Assembly: GCA_033344875.1 (NCBI GenBank)
Contig: JAWPMO010000001.1
Coordinates: 558,001 to 622,000, forward strand
Length of the DNA stretch: 64,000 bases
Reading direction: 5' to 3'
Source: Ilumatobacteraceae bacterium
Lineage (GTDB): Bacteria > Actinomycetota > Acidimicrobiia > Acidimicrobiales > Ilumatobacteraceae
This document shows, piece by piece, positions 41,935-53,685 of the stretch (position 1 is the stretch's first letter; the number at the start of each line of letters is the position of its first letter). The notes under the pieces were generated by a model. It saw only the letters and a list, made by a program, of their open reading frames with translations, searched no databases and had not been told where the DNA came from. The translations under genes were made by a program, and so were the position numbers.

Positions 41935-43644
41935 TCAGCGCGGTCCGCGGACGAGTCGACCGGGCAGTTCGCCGGTGAACGCGTCGTCGGTGACGGTCTC
42001 GACGCCGGCGCAGAACGTGTGGCGGTAACCGCTCGCTTTCTGGACGAGGCGCGGGGCGCCGCCGGGCAGGTCCCAGGCCATGCGCGGCTTGCCGAACGTG
42101 AGCGCGTCGTAGTCGATCACGTTGACGTCGGCGCGCATCCCGGGTGACAACAGACCGCGATCGCCGAGACCGTAGAGCTCGGCGGTCTGGCGGGTCTGAC
42201 GGTGGATGACGTACTCGAGCGGCATCTTCGGTCCGCGCGACCGGTCACGGGTCCAGTGGGTGAGCATGAACGTGGGGGTGCCGCCGTCGCAGATCACACG
42301 CACGTGGGCGCCGGCGTCGGCCAGGCCCATCCGGGTCGACGGGTTCATGTGTGCGTCGTACACGAAGCTGAGGTCGCCGTAGCTGTAGTTGAAGAACGGC
42401 GAGTACAACATGCCGTGGCCGTCGGCGGTGAGCAGTTGGTCGATCATCAGGGCCATCGGGCCGGCGCCGGTCCGGGCAGCGACGGCACCGACCGCCTCGT
42501 CGGGCGAGGGCTCGTAGTCGATGTCGCCGTCGGCGACCGCCCAGATCTTGTGCGTCACGTTGAGGACGGCTCGCTCGAAGAACCCGCCGTCGTCGGGGAC
42601 CTCGTCGATGATGCGGTCGCGGATCGGTCCGGCCTGCAGCGCCCGGCGGCGTTCGTCGAGGGGCAGCTCGGCGATCTCCTGGTACGCCGGGTGGAACATC
42701 AGCGGGTGATAGCTGCCCTCGAGGCACATCAGGAGTCCGACGGTGCGGCCGTGGACCTGGGCGACGATCGGCACGCCGTTGGCGCGGTCCTCGTCGAGCT
42801 TGGCGATCACCTGCTTCCACAGGTCGGGCTGCTGGTCGGTCTGCGAGAAGTTGACGCTGACGGTGCGGCCGCTTCGGGTCGCGAGCTCGCGCATCCAGGT
42901 CCACTCCTGGTCGGGGAGGATCACGTGCTCGGGAGCGAACTGGAACACCCCGTGACCGACGTCGGCCATCGCGTCGGCGATGCCGTACAACTCGGTCGCG
43001 TCGACCATGGTGCCGGGCACGAGCTCGCCCGACTTCGACTTGTGGAGCGGTGTTCGACTGGTGGAGAAGCCGAGCGCGCCCGCTCGCAGGCCCTCGCCGA
43101 CCAGGTCGGCCATGGCGCCGATGTCGTCGGAGTTCGCCTCCTCGTTGGCGGCGCCGCGTTCACCCATCACGTAGCCCCGCACCGCGCCGTGCGGCACCTG
43201 GGTGCCGATGTCGAGCACGTACCGGCGACGATCGAGGGCGTCGAGGTACTCGGGGAAGGTCTCCCACTCCCACTGGATGCCCTCGGTCAGCGCCGCGCCG
43301 GGGATGTCCTCGACACCCTCCATCATCTCGATCAGCCACTCGTGCTTGTCGGGGGCCGCCGGGGCGAAGCCGACGCCGCAGTTGCCCACGACGGCCGTCG
43401 TGACACCGTGCCACGAGCTGGGCGTCAGGTACGGGTCCCAGGTCGCTTGGGCGTCGTAGTGGGTGTGGACGTCGACGAAGCCGGGCGTGACGAGCAGCCC
43501 GGTCGCGTCGATCTCGCGGGTGCCGGGCCCGACGTCGGTGCCGACCGCGGCGATGACACCGCCGTCGATCGCGACGTCGGCGACGCGGGCGGGCGCCCCG
43601 CTGCCGTCGACCACGTTGCCCCCACGGATCACCAGATCATGCAT
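41935..43644 (-). CDS. Amidohydrolase of the N-acyl-D-amino-acid deacylase family
   Basis: 569 residues from the ATG at 43644; a GTG 9 nt upstream is also in frame but lies against the -10 box. It has a metal-dependent TIM-barrel hydrolase: DLVIRGGNVVDGSG, PGFVDVHTHYDAQATWD with the HxH metal site, VVGNCGVGFAPAAPD typical of D-aminoacylases, and a C-terminal LSPGMRADVNVIDYD. The probable reaction is release of an acyl group from an N-acyl-D-amino acid. It ends 19 bp from the convergent phosphatase gene. Confidence 0.85.
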   Translation of the reverse strand: MHDLVIRGGNVVDGSGAPARVADVAIDGGVIAAVGTDVGPGTREIDATGLLVTPGFVDVHTHYDAQATWDPYLTPSSWHGVTTAVVGNCGVGFAPAAPDKHEWLIEMMEGVEDIPGAALTEGIQWEWETFPEYLDALDRRRYVLDIGTQVPHGAVRGYVMGERGAANEEANSDDIGAMADLVGEGLRAGALGFSTSRTPLHKSKSGELVPGTMVDATELYGIADAMADVGHGVFQFAPEHVILPDQEWTWMRELATRSGRTVSVNFSQTDQQPDLWKQVIAKLDEDRANGVPIVAQVHGRTVGLLMCLEGSYHPLMFHPAYQEIAELPLDERRRALQAGPIRDRIIDEVPDDGGFFERAVLNVTHKIWAVADGDIDYEPSPDEAVGAVAARTGAGPMALMIDQLLTADGHGMLYSPFFNYSYGDLSFVYDAHMNPSTRMGLADAGAHVRVICDGGTPTFMLTHWTRDRSRGPKMPLEYVIHRQTRQTAELYGLGDRGLLSPGMRADVNVIDYDALTFGKPRMAWDLPGGAPRLVQKASGYRHTFCAGVETVTDDAFTGELPGRLVRGPR

Positions 43645-43651
43645 GGCGGTC

Positions 43652-43657
43652 ACGGTA
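43652..43657 (-). promoter_or_regulatory. -10 hexamer TACCGT of the amidohydrolase gene
   Basis: Minus-strand TACCGT ends 7 nt before the ATG at 43644. Confidence 0.45.
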
Positions 43658-43711: not shown

Positions 43712-44224
43712 TCAGGTCACGACGAGCTCGGCGAACATGCCGTGTGCGAGATGGGGCGCACCTCCGTCGACGTCCGGAGGGCCGTCGCTCGTCGCTGCTG
43801 CGGCCAGGTACTCGTCGGGATCGGCCCCCGTCGGGATGAAGCAGGCGATCAGGTAGCGCCCGGGCTCGGTGAGGGTGCCGTCGCCGACCGCGACGATCTG
43901 TTCGTCGCTCCCTGGCGCTGCGAGCACCACGAGCGCCGGCTCGCTCGCCATGAGCGCCGCCGCGTCGGCGAGCACGTCGTCGACCGAACGGTCGTCATCG
44001 TCCGCGAGTCGGAACGCGACGAGTTCGTGGAGCTCGCTCGACGACGTGTTGGAGACGGCGATCTCGGTACCGGCGGGGACGGAACTCGGCAGGTCGTCGA
44101 AGCTGAAGTCGCTCATCTCGACCTCGATCGTGCCGGGTTCGGCGGCACCGTCGTCGCCGCACCCGACGAGTGCGAGTGAGGCAAGGGCGAAGACGGCGGC
44201 GACGGGTCGGTGTGGTCTGGTCAT
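43712..44224 (-). CDS. Cupredoxin-like lipoprotein
   Basis: 170 residues with GAGGAAAC ribosome binding site. The lipoprotein signal ends in LVGC (Cys22). The mature domain reads like a small blue copper protein: IEVEMSDFSFDDLPSSVPAGT, VSNTSSSELHELVAF with His66, GRYLIACFIP with Cys128, then HLAHGMFAEL with His158/161 and Met163, a possible H-C-H-M type 1 copper set. The stretch between Cys and the second His is about 30 residues longer than in plastocyanins. Electron transfer or copper handling outside the membrane is plausible but unproven. It follows the cupin gene. Confidence 0.65.
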   Translation of the reverse strand: MTRPHRPVAAVFALASLALVGCGDDGAAEPGTIEVEMSDFSFDDLPSSVPAGTEIAVSNTSSSELHELVAFRLADDDDRSVDDVLADAAALMASEPALVVLAAPGSDEQIVAVGDGTLTEPGRYLIACFIPTGADPDEYLAAAATSDGPPDVDGGAPHLAHGMFAELVVT

Positions 44225-44265: not shown

Positions 44266-44784
44266 TCATGCGAGCGGCCCCGGGGGCGGCCCGAGCACTT
44301 CGATGCCGTGGGCGGCGCACACGGTCGAGACGTGCGCGGGATCGATGCCCTCGGCCTCGATCGTCGTCGGGTCGTCGATCGGACGTCCGAGCGTGCTGAC
44401 GAACGTGTCGAACGACGGCTGCGTGTCGCGTCCGGAGCTGATGGTGGTGAACCGGGCCGAATCCGACTCGACCTGGAAGGTGTGGGGGATGCCGACCGGC
44501 AGTACGGCGACGTCGCCGGCACTCACCAGCGACTCGACGTCTCCGGAGCGCAGCCGGATGTCGCCGTCGGACACGATCATGATCTCGTCCTCCTCGGCGT
44601 GTGCGTGCAGCGGGGGACCGAATCCGCGTGGCGCGGTGAACTCGACCACGTTCGTCCCCGACGACAGGTCGCTGCTGCGGACCTTGACCGTGGCGAGGTG
44701 GTCGAGGAAGTGGTGGTGTTCGCCGGTGCCCGCCGGCACGGCTCGGACGACTGGTTCGGTGCTGGTGGAGTTGCTCATGCCCAC
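44266..44784 (-). CDS. Cupin domain protein
   Basis: 172 residues; the start may be GTG at 44784 or the ATG two codons later. The cupin beta-barrel motifs are GPPLHAHAEEDEIMIVSDGDIRLRSG (metal-binding His-x-His-x3-Glu-like) and GDVAVLPVGIPHTFQV. The C-terminal third is unassigned. It sits directly after the hydrolase-SARP gene on the same strand, so they may be linked in regulation or substrate. No enzymatic role can be claimed. Confidence 0.78.
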   Translation of the reverse strand: MGMSNSTSTEPVVRAVPAGTGEHHHFLDHLATVKVRSSDLSSGTNVVEFTAPRGFGPPLHAHAEEDEIMIVSDGDIRLRSGDVESLVSAGDVAVLPVGIPHTFQVESDSARFTTISSGRDTQPSFDTFVSTLGRPIDDPTTIEAEGIDPAHVSTVCAAHGIEVLGPPPGPLA

Positions 44785-44832
44785 ACCGTCGTCCGGCGCT
44801 CTTTCGAAACTCTTCAGGCGGCGACGACCGAC

Positions 44833-46376
44833 TCAGTTCGGCAACAGGATGGCGTCGAAGTCGTCGGCCTCGACCCCGAGCTCGGTCATCCGAGCCTGGT
44901 ACGTGACATACGCCTCGCGGGCGGCTCCGTGGCTGCCGCCCGTGTGGAGGCCGGCGATGACGGCGCAGTGGGCAGGGTCGTCGTAGGGATCGAGCGTGAG
45001 GATGCGGCTGCCGACGGCGGCTGCCTCGAGGGGCTCGCCGCGCTCGAGCGCCTGGTCGATCAGTTGCCGAGCCGCGATCAGGAATCGGTTGCGGGCGGCG
45101 GCGCGAGGCGGGGCCGCCCAATCCTCGTACTCGTCGTCGGGGAGCAGGTCGCCCGGGTACGCCTCGTAGATCGCGAGCGGGTCGTCGAGGCGATTGAACG
45201 CGACGAGGTCGCACCGGACGTGGTCGACGTCGAGCCGGATCGTCGACCGGTCGGCGACGACACCGCCGTCGAGGATGCGTCGGACCGTCGACAGCTGCAC
45301 CGACAGCCGGGGCCGCAGCCGGTCGTGATCGGGCTCGTCCGGCCACAGCAGGTCGCAGAGTTCGTCACGTGTGACCGGCCAACCCTCGGCGACCACCAAC
45401 CGCTTCAACAGTTGCCGCGCCCTTCGCGAACCCCAGGCCGACGGGTCGACCTCATCGCCGTCGACCGTGACGGCGAATCGACCCAGCACGAAGATCTCGA
45501 CCTGCGGCCGGCTGCGTCTGACGGGAGCGGTGGAGACCGTGCCCGTGACGAAGTGTTCGATCGTGTCCATGATGGCGTCGATGTCGGCGGCGTACATGAA
45601 GTGGTCGGCGCCGGGGAACTCGACGACCCGGGCGTCCGGCAACGCAGCTGCTGTCTCGTGGGCGAACCGCACCGGCGTGATCGGATCGTCCGTGCGATGG
45701 AGGAGCAGGACAGGGACCGTGATCCGGGGCAGTACGTCCCTGGCGTCCATCAGCCCGTTCATACGCATCAGCGTGACGATCGCGTCGCGGCTCGCCGATT
45801 GGCGCTCGTAGCCGGCGTGCCACGCCCGGAACTCCGGGTCGTCGACCAGCGACGGTGCGAAGAGTTCGGGGGTGAGTGTCTCGGGTGTGCCCCAGGCGTC
45901 GGCGAACCGGAGCAGTCCTTCCTGGCGTCCGTCGTCCGGCTCGGCCTGCTCACGGTCGATCAGGCGGGCGCCGGAGCCGTCGAGGATGATCCCGGCGACG
46001 CGGTCGGGGTAGGTCGCGGCGTACAGCAGCGTCATCGGCCCGCCCTCGGACGTGCCGAACAGGAACGCCCGCTCGACGTCGACCGCGTCCATCACCGCAC
46101 GCAGGTCGTCGACCCGCTGGTCGACTTCGGGCAGGAACACGTTCGGTCCGATGCGCCCGTGCCGCGCTTGTCGAAGTGGACGAAGCGGCAGAACGAACCG
46201 AACCGGTCGAGCATCGTTCGGATCCCCGGCCAACCCCAGCAGTGTTCGATGTTCTGTGCCATCGGCGGGATGGAGACCATCGTCGGCGGACCGCTGCCGA
46301 AGACCTGGTAGGCGATGTTCGTGGATGCCGCGCTGGCGAAGCGGATCGGCGCGCGCGAGTGGTCGGTCTCGTCCAT
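44833..46376 (-). pseudogene. Alpha/beta hydrolase fused to a SARP-type regulator, interrupted by a frameshift
   Basis: From the ATG at 46376 (MDETDHSRAPIRF...) the frame codes for a hydrolase start: YQVFGSGPP, RFVHFDKRGTGASDR. At about 46143-46152 the similarity moves to another frame and continues with PNVFLPEVDQRVDDLRAVMDAV, nucleophile elbow FGTSEGG, HRTDDPITP, and GADHF. Then follow a winged-helix domain (VEIFVLGRFAVTVDGDEV, SRRARQLLKRLV, RDELCDLLWPDEP) and a BTAD-like helical domain. One missing base, in a codon that would read CGn, restores the whole protein (about 514 residues). Either the gene is broken or the base is a sequence error. The second part alone is open from 46395. Adjacent to cupin and lipoprotein genes. 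Confidence 0.8.
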
Positions 46377-46442: not shown

Positions 46443-47907
<1,465 letters not shown>

Positions 47908-47911
<4 letters not shown>

Positions 47912-49197
47912 GCGAACAGATCCTGATCACCGGTGGCACCGTCATCGACCCGACGGGCGAGCGGCACGCCGACGTCCGGATCGCCGACGGACGAGTCGTC
48001 GCGGTGGCCGACCGGCTCGGTCCCGCCGACGGCGATCGTGTCATCGACGCATCGGGATGTGTCGTGAGCCCCGGCTTCGTCGACCTGCACACGCACCTGC
48101 GCGAGCCCGGCAAGGAGGAAGCCGAGACGATCGAGACCGGCTCCCGTGCGGCGGCGAAGGGCGGTTACACCTGCATCGTCGCGATGCCGAACACCGACCC
48201 GACCCAGGACTCGGTCAGCGTCGTCGAGTTCGTCCGCCGGCAGGGCGAGATCGCCGGCCTGTGCGACGTACGTCCGTCGGGGTCGATCACGATCGGCCGG
48301 CGAGGTGAGCAACTGTCGCCGTTGGGCGAACTGGCCGAGGCCGGCGTGCACCTGTTCACCGACGACGGCGACGGTGTACAGGATCCACTCCTGATGCGTC
48401 GTGCGCTCGAGTACGCGGCCGATCTCGGCATCGTGCTCGCCCAGCACTGCGAGGTGAAGCGGCTGACCGAAGGCGCCGTGATGCACGAAGGAGACTGCTG
48501 CTCGACGTTCGGACTGCCCGGCTGGCCCTCGATCGCCGAGGAGATGATGGTCTTCCGCGACATCGAACTCGTCCGCCTCACCGGAGCACCCGTGCACATC
48601 CTGCACCTGTCGACCGCTCGGAGTGTCGATCTGGTGCGGGTGGCGAAGGCCGACGGCCTGCCGGTCACCGCCGAGGCGACGCCGCACCACATCAGCCTCA
48701 CGGACGAACTCCTCGCCGGATACGACTCGATCTACAAGGTCAATCCGCCCCTGCGCACGATGGTCGACGTCGAGGCCGTTCGGGCCGGCGTCGCCGACGG
48801 CACGATCGACGCGATCGCGACCGATCACGCACCGCACGCACCCGAGACCAAGGAACAGCCGCTCGATCACGCGCCCCCCGGCATGCTGGGCCTGGAGACG
48901 GCACTCGGGGTGAGCCTGGCCCATCTCGACATGCCGGTCGCCGCGGTCGTCGCCGCGTTGAGTTGGAAGCCCGCCGCGATCGCCGGCGTCGCCGACGACC
49001 ACGGCCGCCCGATCGCCGAGGGCGAACCCGCCAACATCACCGTCTTCGATCCCGACGAGACCTGGCAGGTGGTGCCCGCCCACCTGGCGAGCAAGAGCCG
49101 AAACACCCCCTTCGTCGGCGTGGAACTCCGCGGGAGGGTTCGCCACACGATCCTGCGCGGACAACTCACCGTCGGGGACGGCACACCGCGTCGATGA
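47908..49197 (+). CDS. pyrC: Dihydroorotase
   Basis: 429 residues, type I class. Zinc ligands in PGFVDLHTHLREPGKEEAETIETGSRAAAKGGYTCIVAMPNTDPTQD (from about residue 53), VLAQHCEV, HILHLST, and ATDHAPHAPETKEQ with the catalytic Asp. It cyclises N-carbamoyl-aspartate to dihydroorotate. It ends the pyrR-pyrB-pyrC run; carA follows after a 112-bp gap with its own promoter and a leader ORF. Confidence 0.95.
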
Positions 49198-49198
49198 A

Positions 49199-49230
49199 GC
49201 ATGACCATGCGATAGGATGCATGACCATGC
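49199..49230. promoter_or_regulatory. Tandem palindromic operator pair around the carA promoter
   Basis: GCATGACCATGC occurs twice (49199-49210 and 49219-49230), each copy a GCATG-AC-CATGC palindrome, starting exactly 20 bp apart, about two helical turns. The second copy extends to 7-bp arms (49217-49232). The -10 candidate TAGGAT (49213-49218) lies between the two, and the predicted transcription start falls inside copy 2. This looks like a two-site operator for a dimeric regulator. Confidence 0.55.
49213..49218 (+). promoter_or_regulatory. -10 hexamer TAGGAT of the carA-carB-pyrD operon
   Basis: TAGGAT ends 8 nt before the ATG at 49227, the spacing seen at the leaderless genes in this window. 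No good -35 is seen, so an activator may be needed. Confidence 0.45.
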
Positions 49231-49313
49231 ATCGAGTCACCGGCCAGCGCCGTCGCGCTGCCGAACGCCCAGCACACGCCCCATCCAACCCCCCGACAGG
49301 AGCAGCAACATGA
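49227..49313 (+). CDS. Candidate arginine-rich leader peptide of carA
   Basis: A 28-codon ORF that begins with the ATG 8 nt after the TAGGAT hexamer and ends in a TGA that overlaps the carA ATG (ATGA). The peptide has five Arg, three of them consecutive (residues 3, 8, 9, 10, 14), then a Pro/Ala-rich tail. The carA ribosome binding site AGGAG lies inside its last codons. Translation of this ORF would cover and couple the carA start. The Arg content suggests response to arginine, the second end product of carbamoyl phosphate. In-frame ATGs further upstream lie before the promoter. Not proven as a gene. Confidence 0.45.
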   Translation: MHRVTGQRRRAAERPAHAPSNPPTGAAT

Positions 49314-50421
49314 CGATCCAGGAGGGCCAGCTGGTCCTGGCCGACGGCAGCGTCTTCGAAGGTGATTTGATCGGTGCGCCGACCAACGGTGGCGTCGCCA
49401 CCGGCGAAGTCGTGTTCAACACGGCGCTGTCCGGTTACCAGGAGATCATCACCGACCCCAGCTATGCCGGGCAGATGATCACGTTCACGTATCCGCACAT
49501 CGGCAACTACGGGGTGAACGCCGTCGACGAGGAGTCCCGCGGCGCGTTCTGTCGCGGCGTGATCGTGCGCGACATGGCGCGCCGTCACAGCAACCATCGT
49601 GCCGAGGGACACCTCGACTCGCTGCTCCACCGGCACGGGATCCCCGGCATCGCCGGCATCGACACGCGCCGTCTGACGCGCATCATCCGCGACACCGGAG
49701 CGATGCCCGGTGCTTTCGGTGACGCGAGCGAGGCCGATCTCCTGGCCGCCGCGGCCGGCGAGCCGGGCACCGACGGCGTCGACCTGGTCGCGCAGGTCAC
49801 CACCGCGGAGGCGTACACGTTCGACGCCGCCGCCGGCGCCCCCGATCGCGTGATCGTGGCGTACGACTTCGGGATCAAGACCAACATCGTCCGGCACCTC
49901 TCGCAGCTCGGGCGGGTCGAGGTCGTCGCCGCATCCACCAGCGCCGCCGACGTCCTGGCGATGTCGCCCGACGGCGTGTTCCTCTCCAACGGCCCCGGCG
50001 ACCCGGCGGTCGTGCAGTACGCCGTCGACGAGATCTCACAGCTCATCGGCAATGTGCCGGTGTTCGGGATCTGTCTGGGGCACCAATTGCTCGGCCGGGC
50101 GCTCGGCGCCGGCACGGTCAAACTCCCGTTCGGTCATCACGGTGCCAATCATCCGGTCAAGAACCTGGTGAACGACACGATCGAGATCACCAGCCAGAAC
50201 CACAACTTCGCCGTCGACGCCGATTCGTTCTCCGGCCTCGGCAAGCAGGTGCGGATGACGCACGTCAACCTCAACGACGGTGTCTGCGAGGGGCTCGAGG
50301 TCGTCGGGGAGCGGTGCTTCAGTGTGCAGCACCATCCGGAGGCCGCACCCGGGCCGCACGACAGCCGCTATCTGTTCACCCAGTTCGACGAACTCATGAC
50401 CACCGGGAAGGTGAGCGCCTG

Positions 50422-50422
<1 letters not shown>
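49310..50422 (+). CDS. carA: Carbamoyl phosphate synthase, small (glutaminase) subunit
   Basis: 370 residues from the ATG at 49310 with AGGAG 7 nt upstream. The N-terminal CPSase domain has [24 protein letters not shown]; the class I glutaminase domain has the nucleophile Cys255 in [11 protein letters not shown] and the HPE dyad in [12 protein letters not shown]. It supplies ammonia to CarB. The stop overlaps the carB ATG by one base. Confidence 0.96.

Positions 50423-53681
<3,259 letters not shown>

Positions 53682-53685
<4 letters not shown>

Follow-up and report, generated by a model that had tools for sequence, protein, structure and literature searches.

The window, a stretch of 64,000 nucleotides from an Ilumatobacteraceae bacterium, carries on its minus strand a regulator gene (44833–46376) in which the sequence of an alpha/beta hydrolase is followed by that of an AfsR/SARP-like winged helix and a BTAD domain. 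A plus-strand reading of the same interval was dropped, as the frames that match relatives lie on the minus strand. This is the order of domains that an earlier note on this DNA had described, and the codons of the Ser-Asp-His triad it named are all present, but its single fused protein was not recovered here, since no one open reading frame spans 44833–46376 in this genome. The first part of the broken gene (46092–46376) runs from an ATG at 46376 to a TGA at 46094–46092; its 94 codons align with the N-termini of relatives and encode the first hydrolase strands as far as FDKRGTGASDR. Alignment with relatives and a homology test (see below) place the break, a net shift of one base, at approximately 46143–46149, where the relatives are open. 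From about 46143 the relatives fit the other frame, which forms the second part (44833–46143), encodes the remaining hydrolase and the SARP domain, and ends in a stop codon at 44835–44833. By alignment, the nucleophile Ser codon (in GTSEGGP) lies at 46048–46050, the triad Asp codon at 45685–45687 and the triad His codon at 45601–45603. Pfam gave no match to the short first part on its own; for the second part it reported the hydrolase (53.8 bits) and, at 44866–45192, the BTAD domain (PF03704; 38.1 bits, cut-off 22.1), with Trans_reg_C falling below its cut-off. Within the TGATG at 46094–46090 the stop of the first part shares bases with an ATG that is in frame with the second part. Re-initiation there is conceivable in principle and would give a product without the first hydrolase strands; as this ATG encodes a Met conserved in the family, the overlap is probably a coincidence.

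The next two genes on the same minus strand, as the earlier note correctly reported, encode a cupin (44266–44778) and a lipoprotein (43712–44224), which we propose as a target operon of the regulator. Pfam, alignment and relatives in structure databases relate the cupin to quercetin 2,3-dioxygenase, the best solved relatives being YxaG and QueD (E 5.6e-26 and 1e-12, respectively). Its metal ligands His, His, Glu and His are invariant (33/33), and it ends in a conserved C-terminal tail, LGPPPxPL. In the lipoprotein alignment the lipobox Cys is present in 16/16 sequences, as is each residue of a blue-copper-like His-Cys-His-Met set, which, judged by the motif, we take to be type 1 copper ligands. 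The best solved relatives of the lipoprotein are blue copper proteins (auracyanin, E 0.0011), while the Pfam Copper-bind model reached 15.2 bits with the best lipoprotein relative, below its cut-off of 21.2, and did not match the window lipoprotein. The module is flanked by a gene resembling N-acyl-D-amino-acid deacylases and by a series of pyr and car genes (pyrR-pyrB-pyrC-carA-carB), at 41935–43653 and 46479–53685, all identified by eye from their translations. A link to this divergent pyr operon was ruled out: among 45 records searched pyrR and pyrB were unmatched and pyrC had one remote match (29%), and none of the deacylase, pyrR, pyrB and pyrC showed linkage to the module elsewhere.

The C-terminal half of the window regulator was modelled at a pLDDT of 97.2 (model m36f5b7897682) and, as had been predicted from the sequence, comprises an OmpR/SARP-type winged helix (45226–45501, minus strand) and the BTAD domain. 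In a structure comparison it matches AfsR (Z 16.0, 4.0 Å over 219 residues) and EmbR (Z 15.4 over 219 residues), with the next rows only at Z of about 10; EmbR was also found by sequence (E 2.1e-6). The winged helix and BTAD combination that characterises SARPs is therefore present, supported both by the Pfam score and by the AfsR and EmbR fold matches. The position of these domains is unusual. In the classes described in the relevant part of a 2024 review (PMC10972967), the SARP part is N-terminal and stands alone or is followed by NB-ARC, TPR or LAL, whereas in all 34 of the family records L046–L079 it is C-terminal, which makes this a new architecture, outside the small, medium, large and SARP-LAL classes.

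Hydrolase and SARP halves share one open frame in each of these 34 records (contig ends remove the N-terminus of L078 and the last residues of L067), and L010–L016 likewise carry both parts in one open frame. The fusion is thus a true family, of which the window copy is a frame-broken member, and the possibility that relatives encode the two parts as separate proteins is ruled out; the search for the same domain order that the earlier note had suggested finds it in many genomes. The family records (L046–L081, L103 and L104; in L080, L081 and L103 the contig ends before the SARP part) come from a scan of an 84,980-species collection, in which 139 relatives were confirmed and 79 loci kept, and which represents a sample of the family since it relied on two short peptide patterns. 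The titles of their metagenome-assembled genomes name Acidimicrobiia, Ilumatobacter, Nitriliruptoraceae, Actinomycetota and the like. Matches to the SARP half at E below 1e-70 occur in 14/296 genomes of a class sample and in 9/346 of a phylum sample, four of them outside the class; the hydrolase sequence is also present in 14/14 of the class members and in the three members from outside the class whose DNA was retrieved (all except G583). No relative of the regulator was confirmed in viral contigs. Many of the regulator loci are closely related, so that their counts do not represent independent events.

The triad of the hydrolase half is conserved throughout the 34 aligned rows, with Ser and His in 34/34 and the acid an Asp in 31 and a Glu in 3. 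An intact relative, L079, was modelled from 35 rows with a pLDDT of 92.2 and a pTM of 0.67, values that make the individual domains sure but not their mutual placement. With Z of about 27–30, the structure matches to its hydrolase half include esterases, haloperoxidases, C-C hydrolases and D14, and esterases, haloperoxidases and enol-lactonases are the nearest structures. Of the receptors RsbQ, D14 and KAI2, which the earlier note had named for comparison, D14 (Z of about 27) is one among many similar hydrolase folds, and RsbQ is absent from the structure match lists, an absence that excludes nothing; the nearest relatives are hydrolase-cyclase fusions of the LipJ type. The best NCBIfam match is LipJ (NF058673; L079 residues 5–286, E 6.3e-43, 147 bits), although neither L079 nor the window sequence (88 bits) reaches the equivalog cut-off of 800 bits. 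LipJ (Rv1900c) appears as a characterised esterase in a listing within PMC10865251.

In the next relatives of the hydrolase half the fusion partner is a class III cyclase, to which an OmpR-type domain is added in some; the cyclase domain is absent from the present family, in which the SARP part takes its place. A tree of 89 rows unites the 34 SARP-fused hydrolases with L080, truncated at its contig end, in a single group (support 84/98, not starred) that is separate from the cyclase rows. The chief reason to consider a sensory role is that the same hydrolase domain precedes several different outputs. One member, L104 (5986–6990; genome G110), which stands outside the 34 triad rows, has lost the middle of the hydrolase in frame, including the region of the Asp and His, and has kept the SARP half, operator and cupin; this may be a real variant, in which the hydrolase is dispensable, or an assembly fault.

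Relatives at roughly 50–60% identity cross the break point of the window gene in one frame. When 464 kb of its own genome, of which 91,488 bases were testable, were examined by homology, the regulator break was the only one detected, which argues that indels are not frequent in this assembly. On a recount against the window the break is shown by 63 reference records, three of them duplicates; most of the 63 were originally fetched as relatives of the regulator gene, which was thus examined much more intensively than the rest. In two control genomes the test returned artefacts of the antisense frame of the regulator gene: one candidate place in G001 (79,013 testable bases) and, in G021 (70,108 testable bases), two overlapping views of a single place. 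The homology test replaced detection by coding statistics, one version of which missed the known break, another caught 2/195 simulated breaks, and a third caught 128/195 yet called about 0.6–0.75 sites per kb in every genome. No second lesion was seen in either half of the window gene, and no second strong match to the regulator was found in its own genome. The break is either a recent mutation or an isolated sequencing error. As sequenced, the window copy probably does not yield the full fusion protein, and it is doubtful that it acts as a full-length switch, unless the break is a sequencing error.

The association with the cupin was examined at 40 distinct regulator loci (L046–L081, L103, L104, L039 of G001 and L043 of G021). 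The cupin lies within the fetched DNA at 32 of them; of the eight others, six end with their contig within about 100 nt of the regulator end, and two (L048 and L051) have room for it. Among the 296 genomes of the class sample, 14 have a strong regulator match and 14 a strong cupin match (E below 1e-70 and 1e-69, respectively, set at the gap in the E-value lists), with 13 in common (Fisher p 1.2e-20). The two genes are adjacent in 12 of these 13 genomes and 2.2 kb apart in the other, so the co-occurrence suggested for checking in the earlier note is evident. Besides the window, 15 of the 40 loci have a lipoprotein near the regulator; in the class sample the lipoprotein (E below 1e-53) is found in 12/14 regulator genomes versus 5/282 others, and in 9/14 regulator genomes it lies inside the module.

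Within 44785–44832, the stretch that the earlier note had named for a DNA-binding test, pattern, matrix and leave-one-out scoring identify a SARP-type operator (44799–44818, minus strand): a direct repeat with half-sites 11 bp apart (consensus TCGGAAGGTTTTCnGAAGGG), the first repeat of which starts 36 nt before the cupin ATG. The AAGG-type element was first noticed by eye in the listed regulator-cupin gaps and scored only afterwards; an unguided motif search in the DNA preceding the regulator returned a motif without the SARP pattern and was set aside. The plain box pattern is found in 25/26 gaps examined, against a background of 0.021 per kb in 2.4 Mb of strand. With a matrix built from 28 sites, a scan of 1.2 Mb from three genomes gave a best off-module score of 13.8 bits, and the two sites above 16 bits were both within the module of G021. 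The box starts 35–37 nt before an in-frame ATG in 33/34 cupin genes (leave-one-out scores 6.9 to 34.8) when the start codon nearest +36 is taken, as our script did, and in 30/34 when the first in-frame ATG after the box is used instead; in L059, L070 and L104 the ATG at 36–37 is accompanied by another that comes earlier. In L071, the 34th case, a lipoprotein gene with its own box at +37 precedes the cupin. The window operator, at +36, scores 16.0 bits leave-one-out, and 25 of the 27 other training sites score higher. Sites outside the matrix training (L039, L075, L076, L078 and L262 of G301) score 25 to 31; three of these, L075, L076 and L262, have no regulator upstream, and coding of the regulator end therefore cannot explain the box.

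SARP sites are described, in parts of two published accounts (PMC5930380, PMC10972967), as heptamer repeats with an 11-bp period that overlap the −35 region. The box conforms to this description, as 11-bp direct repeats near the −35 region at a fixed distance before 33/34 cupin genes, a count that refers to the presence of the repeat. By eye, a −10-like element appears to end about six bases before the cupin ATG, on which basis the cupin transcript may be leaderless.

Boxes are also present at 3/3 divergent lipoproteins and at 7/7 secreted cluster-3 genes beside regulators (mostly Nitriliruptoraceae, and including L077), in the latter mostly farther from the start. Proteins of this secreted family, which have signal-peptide-like starts, are encoded at L058:4584–5240, L064:5332–5883, L069:238–810, L072:660–1244, L081:2877–3473 and L051:1546–2055; Pfam matched 0/4 of those tested, and this family is likely another target of the regulator. 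For lipoprotein relatives in genomes without regulator and cupin, a box was found in 0/7 tested, whole loci of 2–3.5 kb included (G062, G077, G237, G350 and the second copy of G168 were left out). Where lipoproteins lie elsewhere in regulator genomes, G001 has a box of 18.0 bits with an ATG at +36 (counted by hand; found by a wider scan and missed by a narrower one), G110 has a 15.2-bit box with a start at +74, and G261 has none. In the window's own genome, neither the lipoprotein paralogue nor the distant cupin (G000:C1:2785673 and 2858122; L267 and L266) has a box of at least 8 bits nearby. A pattern for the window variant, allowing up to two mismatches, found two places in the same genome, that of the cupin and one inside a coding frame; the latter was dropped as a chance match.

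A calibrated box model was run on 38 genomes with 150 candidates scored in each; many of these had contributed sites to it (G001 and G301 had not), and for them matches at the module are no test. At E<=1 it matched 11 of the 15 genomes that carry the regulator or the cupin, always at the module, and 2/23 others; it missed G000 (and with it the window operator), G214, G335 and G261. A start codon follows 35–38 nt on in 4/6 of the off-module matches in regulator genomes (three in G001 and one in G312) and in 0/3 of those without a regulator, and these off-module boxes hint at a small regulon. Boxes of this kind, 35–38 nt before the start codons of other genes, include those at L284 and L289 (G001) and L285 (G312). 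At L055:3271–5418 there are two boxes 2.1 kb apart, with the apparent end of another SARP gene before the second, and a tandem duplication is possible. Tandem repeats with CACCCGACCCG-like units were seen by eye upstream of the regulator, beside the module, in L047 and L010.

From the domain content and predicted fold, the conserved triad, the gene linkage and the conserved operator at its fixed spacing, we infer a one-component regulator in which the hydrolase half senses an ester-like compound and the SARP half switches on the cupin operon, a reading that, taken as a whole, we consider reasonably probable. The C-terminal SARP half would bind the direct repeat, with its 11-bp spacing, in the −35 region that immediately precedes the metal-cupin gene and activate a nearly leaderless cupin operon, which in some cases would include the cupredoxin-like lipoprotein; that it binds the predicted box and switches on the cupin unit is very likely. 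The N-terminal LipJ-type half, with its Ser-Asp/Glu-His triad intact, would serve as the input, and would bind an ester- or lactone-like compound, probably tied to the dioxygenase chemistry of the cupin, such that ligand binding or turnover alters the activity of the SARP half. An input function of the hydrolase is somewhat favoured by our analysis, on the grounds of its kinship with hydrolase-cyclase fusions and its conserved triad. That it also cleaves its own inducer is possible, if rather less likely. The known product of quercetinases is an ester, which the hydrolase could recognise. Tentatively, the regulator might be a self-resetting receptor, in which an ester or lactone inducer is bound and subsequently cleaved, so that transcription of the dioxygenase and blue-copper lipoprotein genes tracks turnover; in this speculative extension the LipJ-type hydrolase would be a general plug-in sensor, joined to cyclases, to OmpR-type domains and, once, to a SARP.

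Several observations count against the one-component reading or invite other explanations of the same features. The frame-broken window copy and its weak operator are two of them. G261 has a divergent regulator but lacks a strong cupin, and the 12 kb around this regulator contain no box of at least 9 bits; conversely, G301 (C55; L262:5351–6469) has the cupin, the lipoprotein and the box, and the regulator was not found in this 90% complete genome, the contig ending about 0.4 kb upstream of the cupin. We count both against our explanation, as we do the mixed outcome for lipoproteins elsewhere in regulator genomes and L104 of G110, which has kept its SARP half, box and cupin with the middle of the hydrolase missing. 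The hydrolase could also be a pathway enzyme tethered to the SARP and acting downstream of the cupin, for example on an ester made by the dioxygenase, with no part in sensing. A fully conserved triad, nearest structures among esterases, haloperoxidases and enol-lactonases, and a quercetinase-like cupin, whose relatives release an ester, all speak for such an enzyme; the occurrence of the same hydrolase group on cyclase, OmpR-type plus cyclase and SARP outputs nevertheless fits an input domain better, and we regard the tethered enzyme as rather unlikely.

For the window copy itself the balance is even as to whether it is a recent pseudogene, which would leave the cupin operon without its activator and its weak operator decaying, a situation compatible with the one-component reading for the family. 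The sole frame break in the homology-tested bases of the genome falls in this gene, the genome has no second strong regulator match, and its operator is weaker than most; on the other hand, neither half shows a second lesion, the operator spacing is kept exactly, and the break may be an isolated sequencing error. Alternatively, the repeat might serve a different regulator, such as a response regulator of the PhoP kind, which also reads direct repeats, the linkage to the hydrolase-SARP protein being fortuitous; AfsR and PhoP do have a common site at afsS according to part of the 2024 review (PMC10972967). The box, however, follows the module closely, with 13.8 bits as the highest score outside the module in 1.2 Mb, no box at the seven lipoproteins tested in genomes without regulator and cupin, and model matches at E<=1 in 2/23 genomes without the module, and binding by another regulator instead is improbable.

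SARPs have been studied mainly as antibiotic regulators, and their inputs are little known. In the family described here, a SARP is joined to a defined input domain that bears a full triad, and its defined operator and target lie within a few kilobases. It thereby gives direct experimental access to the question of whether bacterial one-component and cyclase proteins use alpha/beta hydrolase domains as signal sensors. We found no report of a hydrolase-BTAD/SARP fusion in the open-access literature searched.

The SARP activators AfsR, EmbR and PimR share with this family the OmpR-type winged helix, the BTAD domain and an 11-bp-period direct repeat close to the −35 region of a target to which they are linked, but in the classes outlined in the review (PMC10972967) their SARP part is N-terminal, whereas here it follows the hydrolase. 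RsbQ, D14 and KAI2, which are known or proposed as signal receptors, likewise have an alpha/beta hydrolase fold with a triad; they are, however, separate proteins that work via partners, while the hydrolase here is fused to a SARP part. For the neighbouring cupin the closest comparison is with the quercetin 2,3-dioxygenases YxaG and QueD, its best solved relatives, which have the same His-His-Glu-His ligands, the conserved LGPPPxPL tail being a point of difference. The closest hydrolase relatives are the LipJ (Rv1900c)-type hydrolase-class III cyclase proteins, which share the FDKRGTGxSD-type signature, the triad and the placement of the hydrolase N-terminal to an output domain; that output is a cyclase there and a SARP here, and the SARP-fused hydrolases form their own tree group. 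The family is thus a SARP regulator by fold and site and LipJ-type by its input half, and belongs to neither class as defined.
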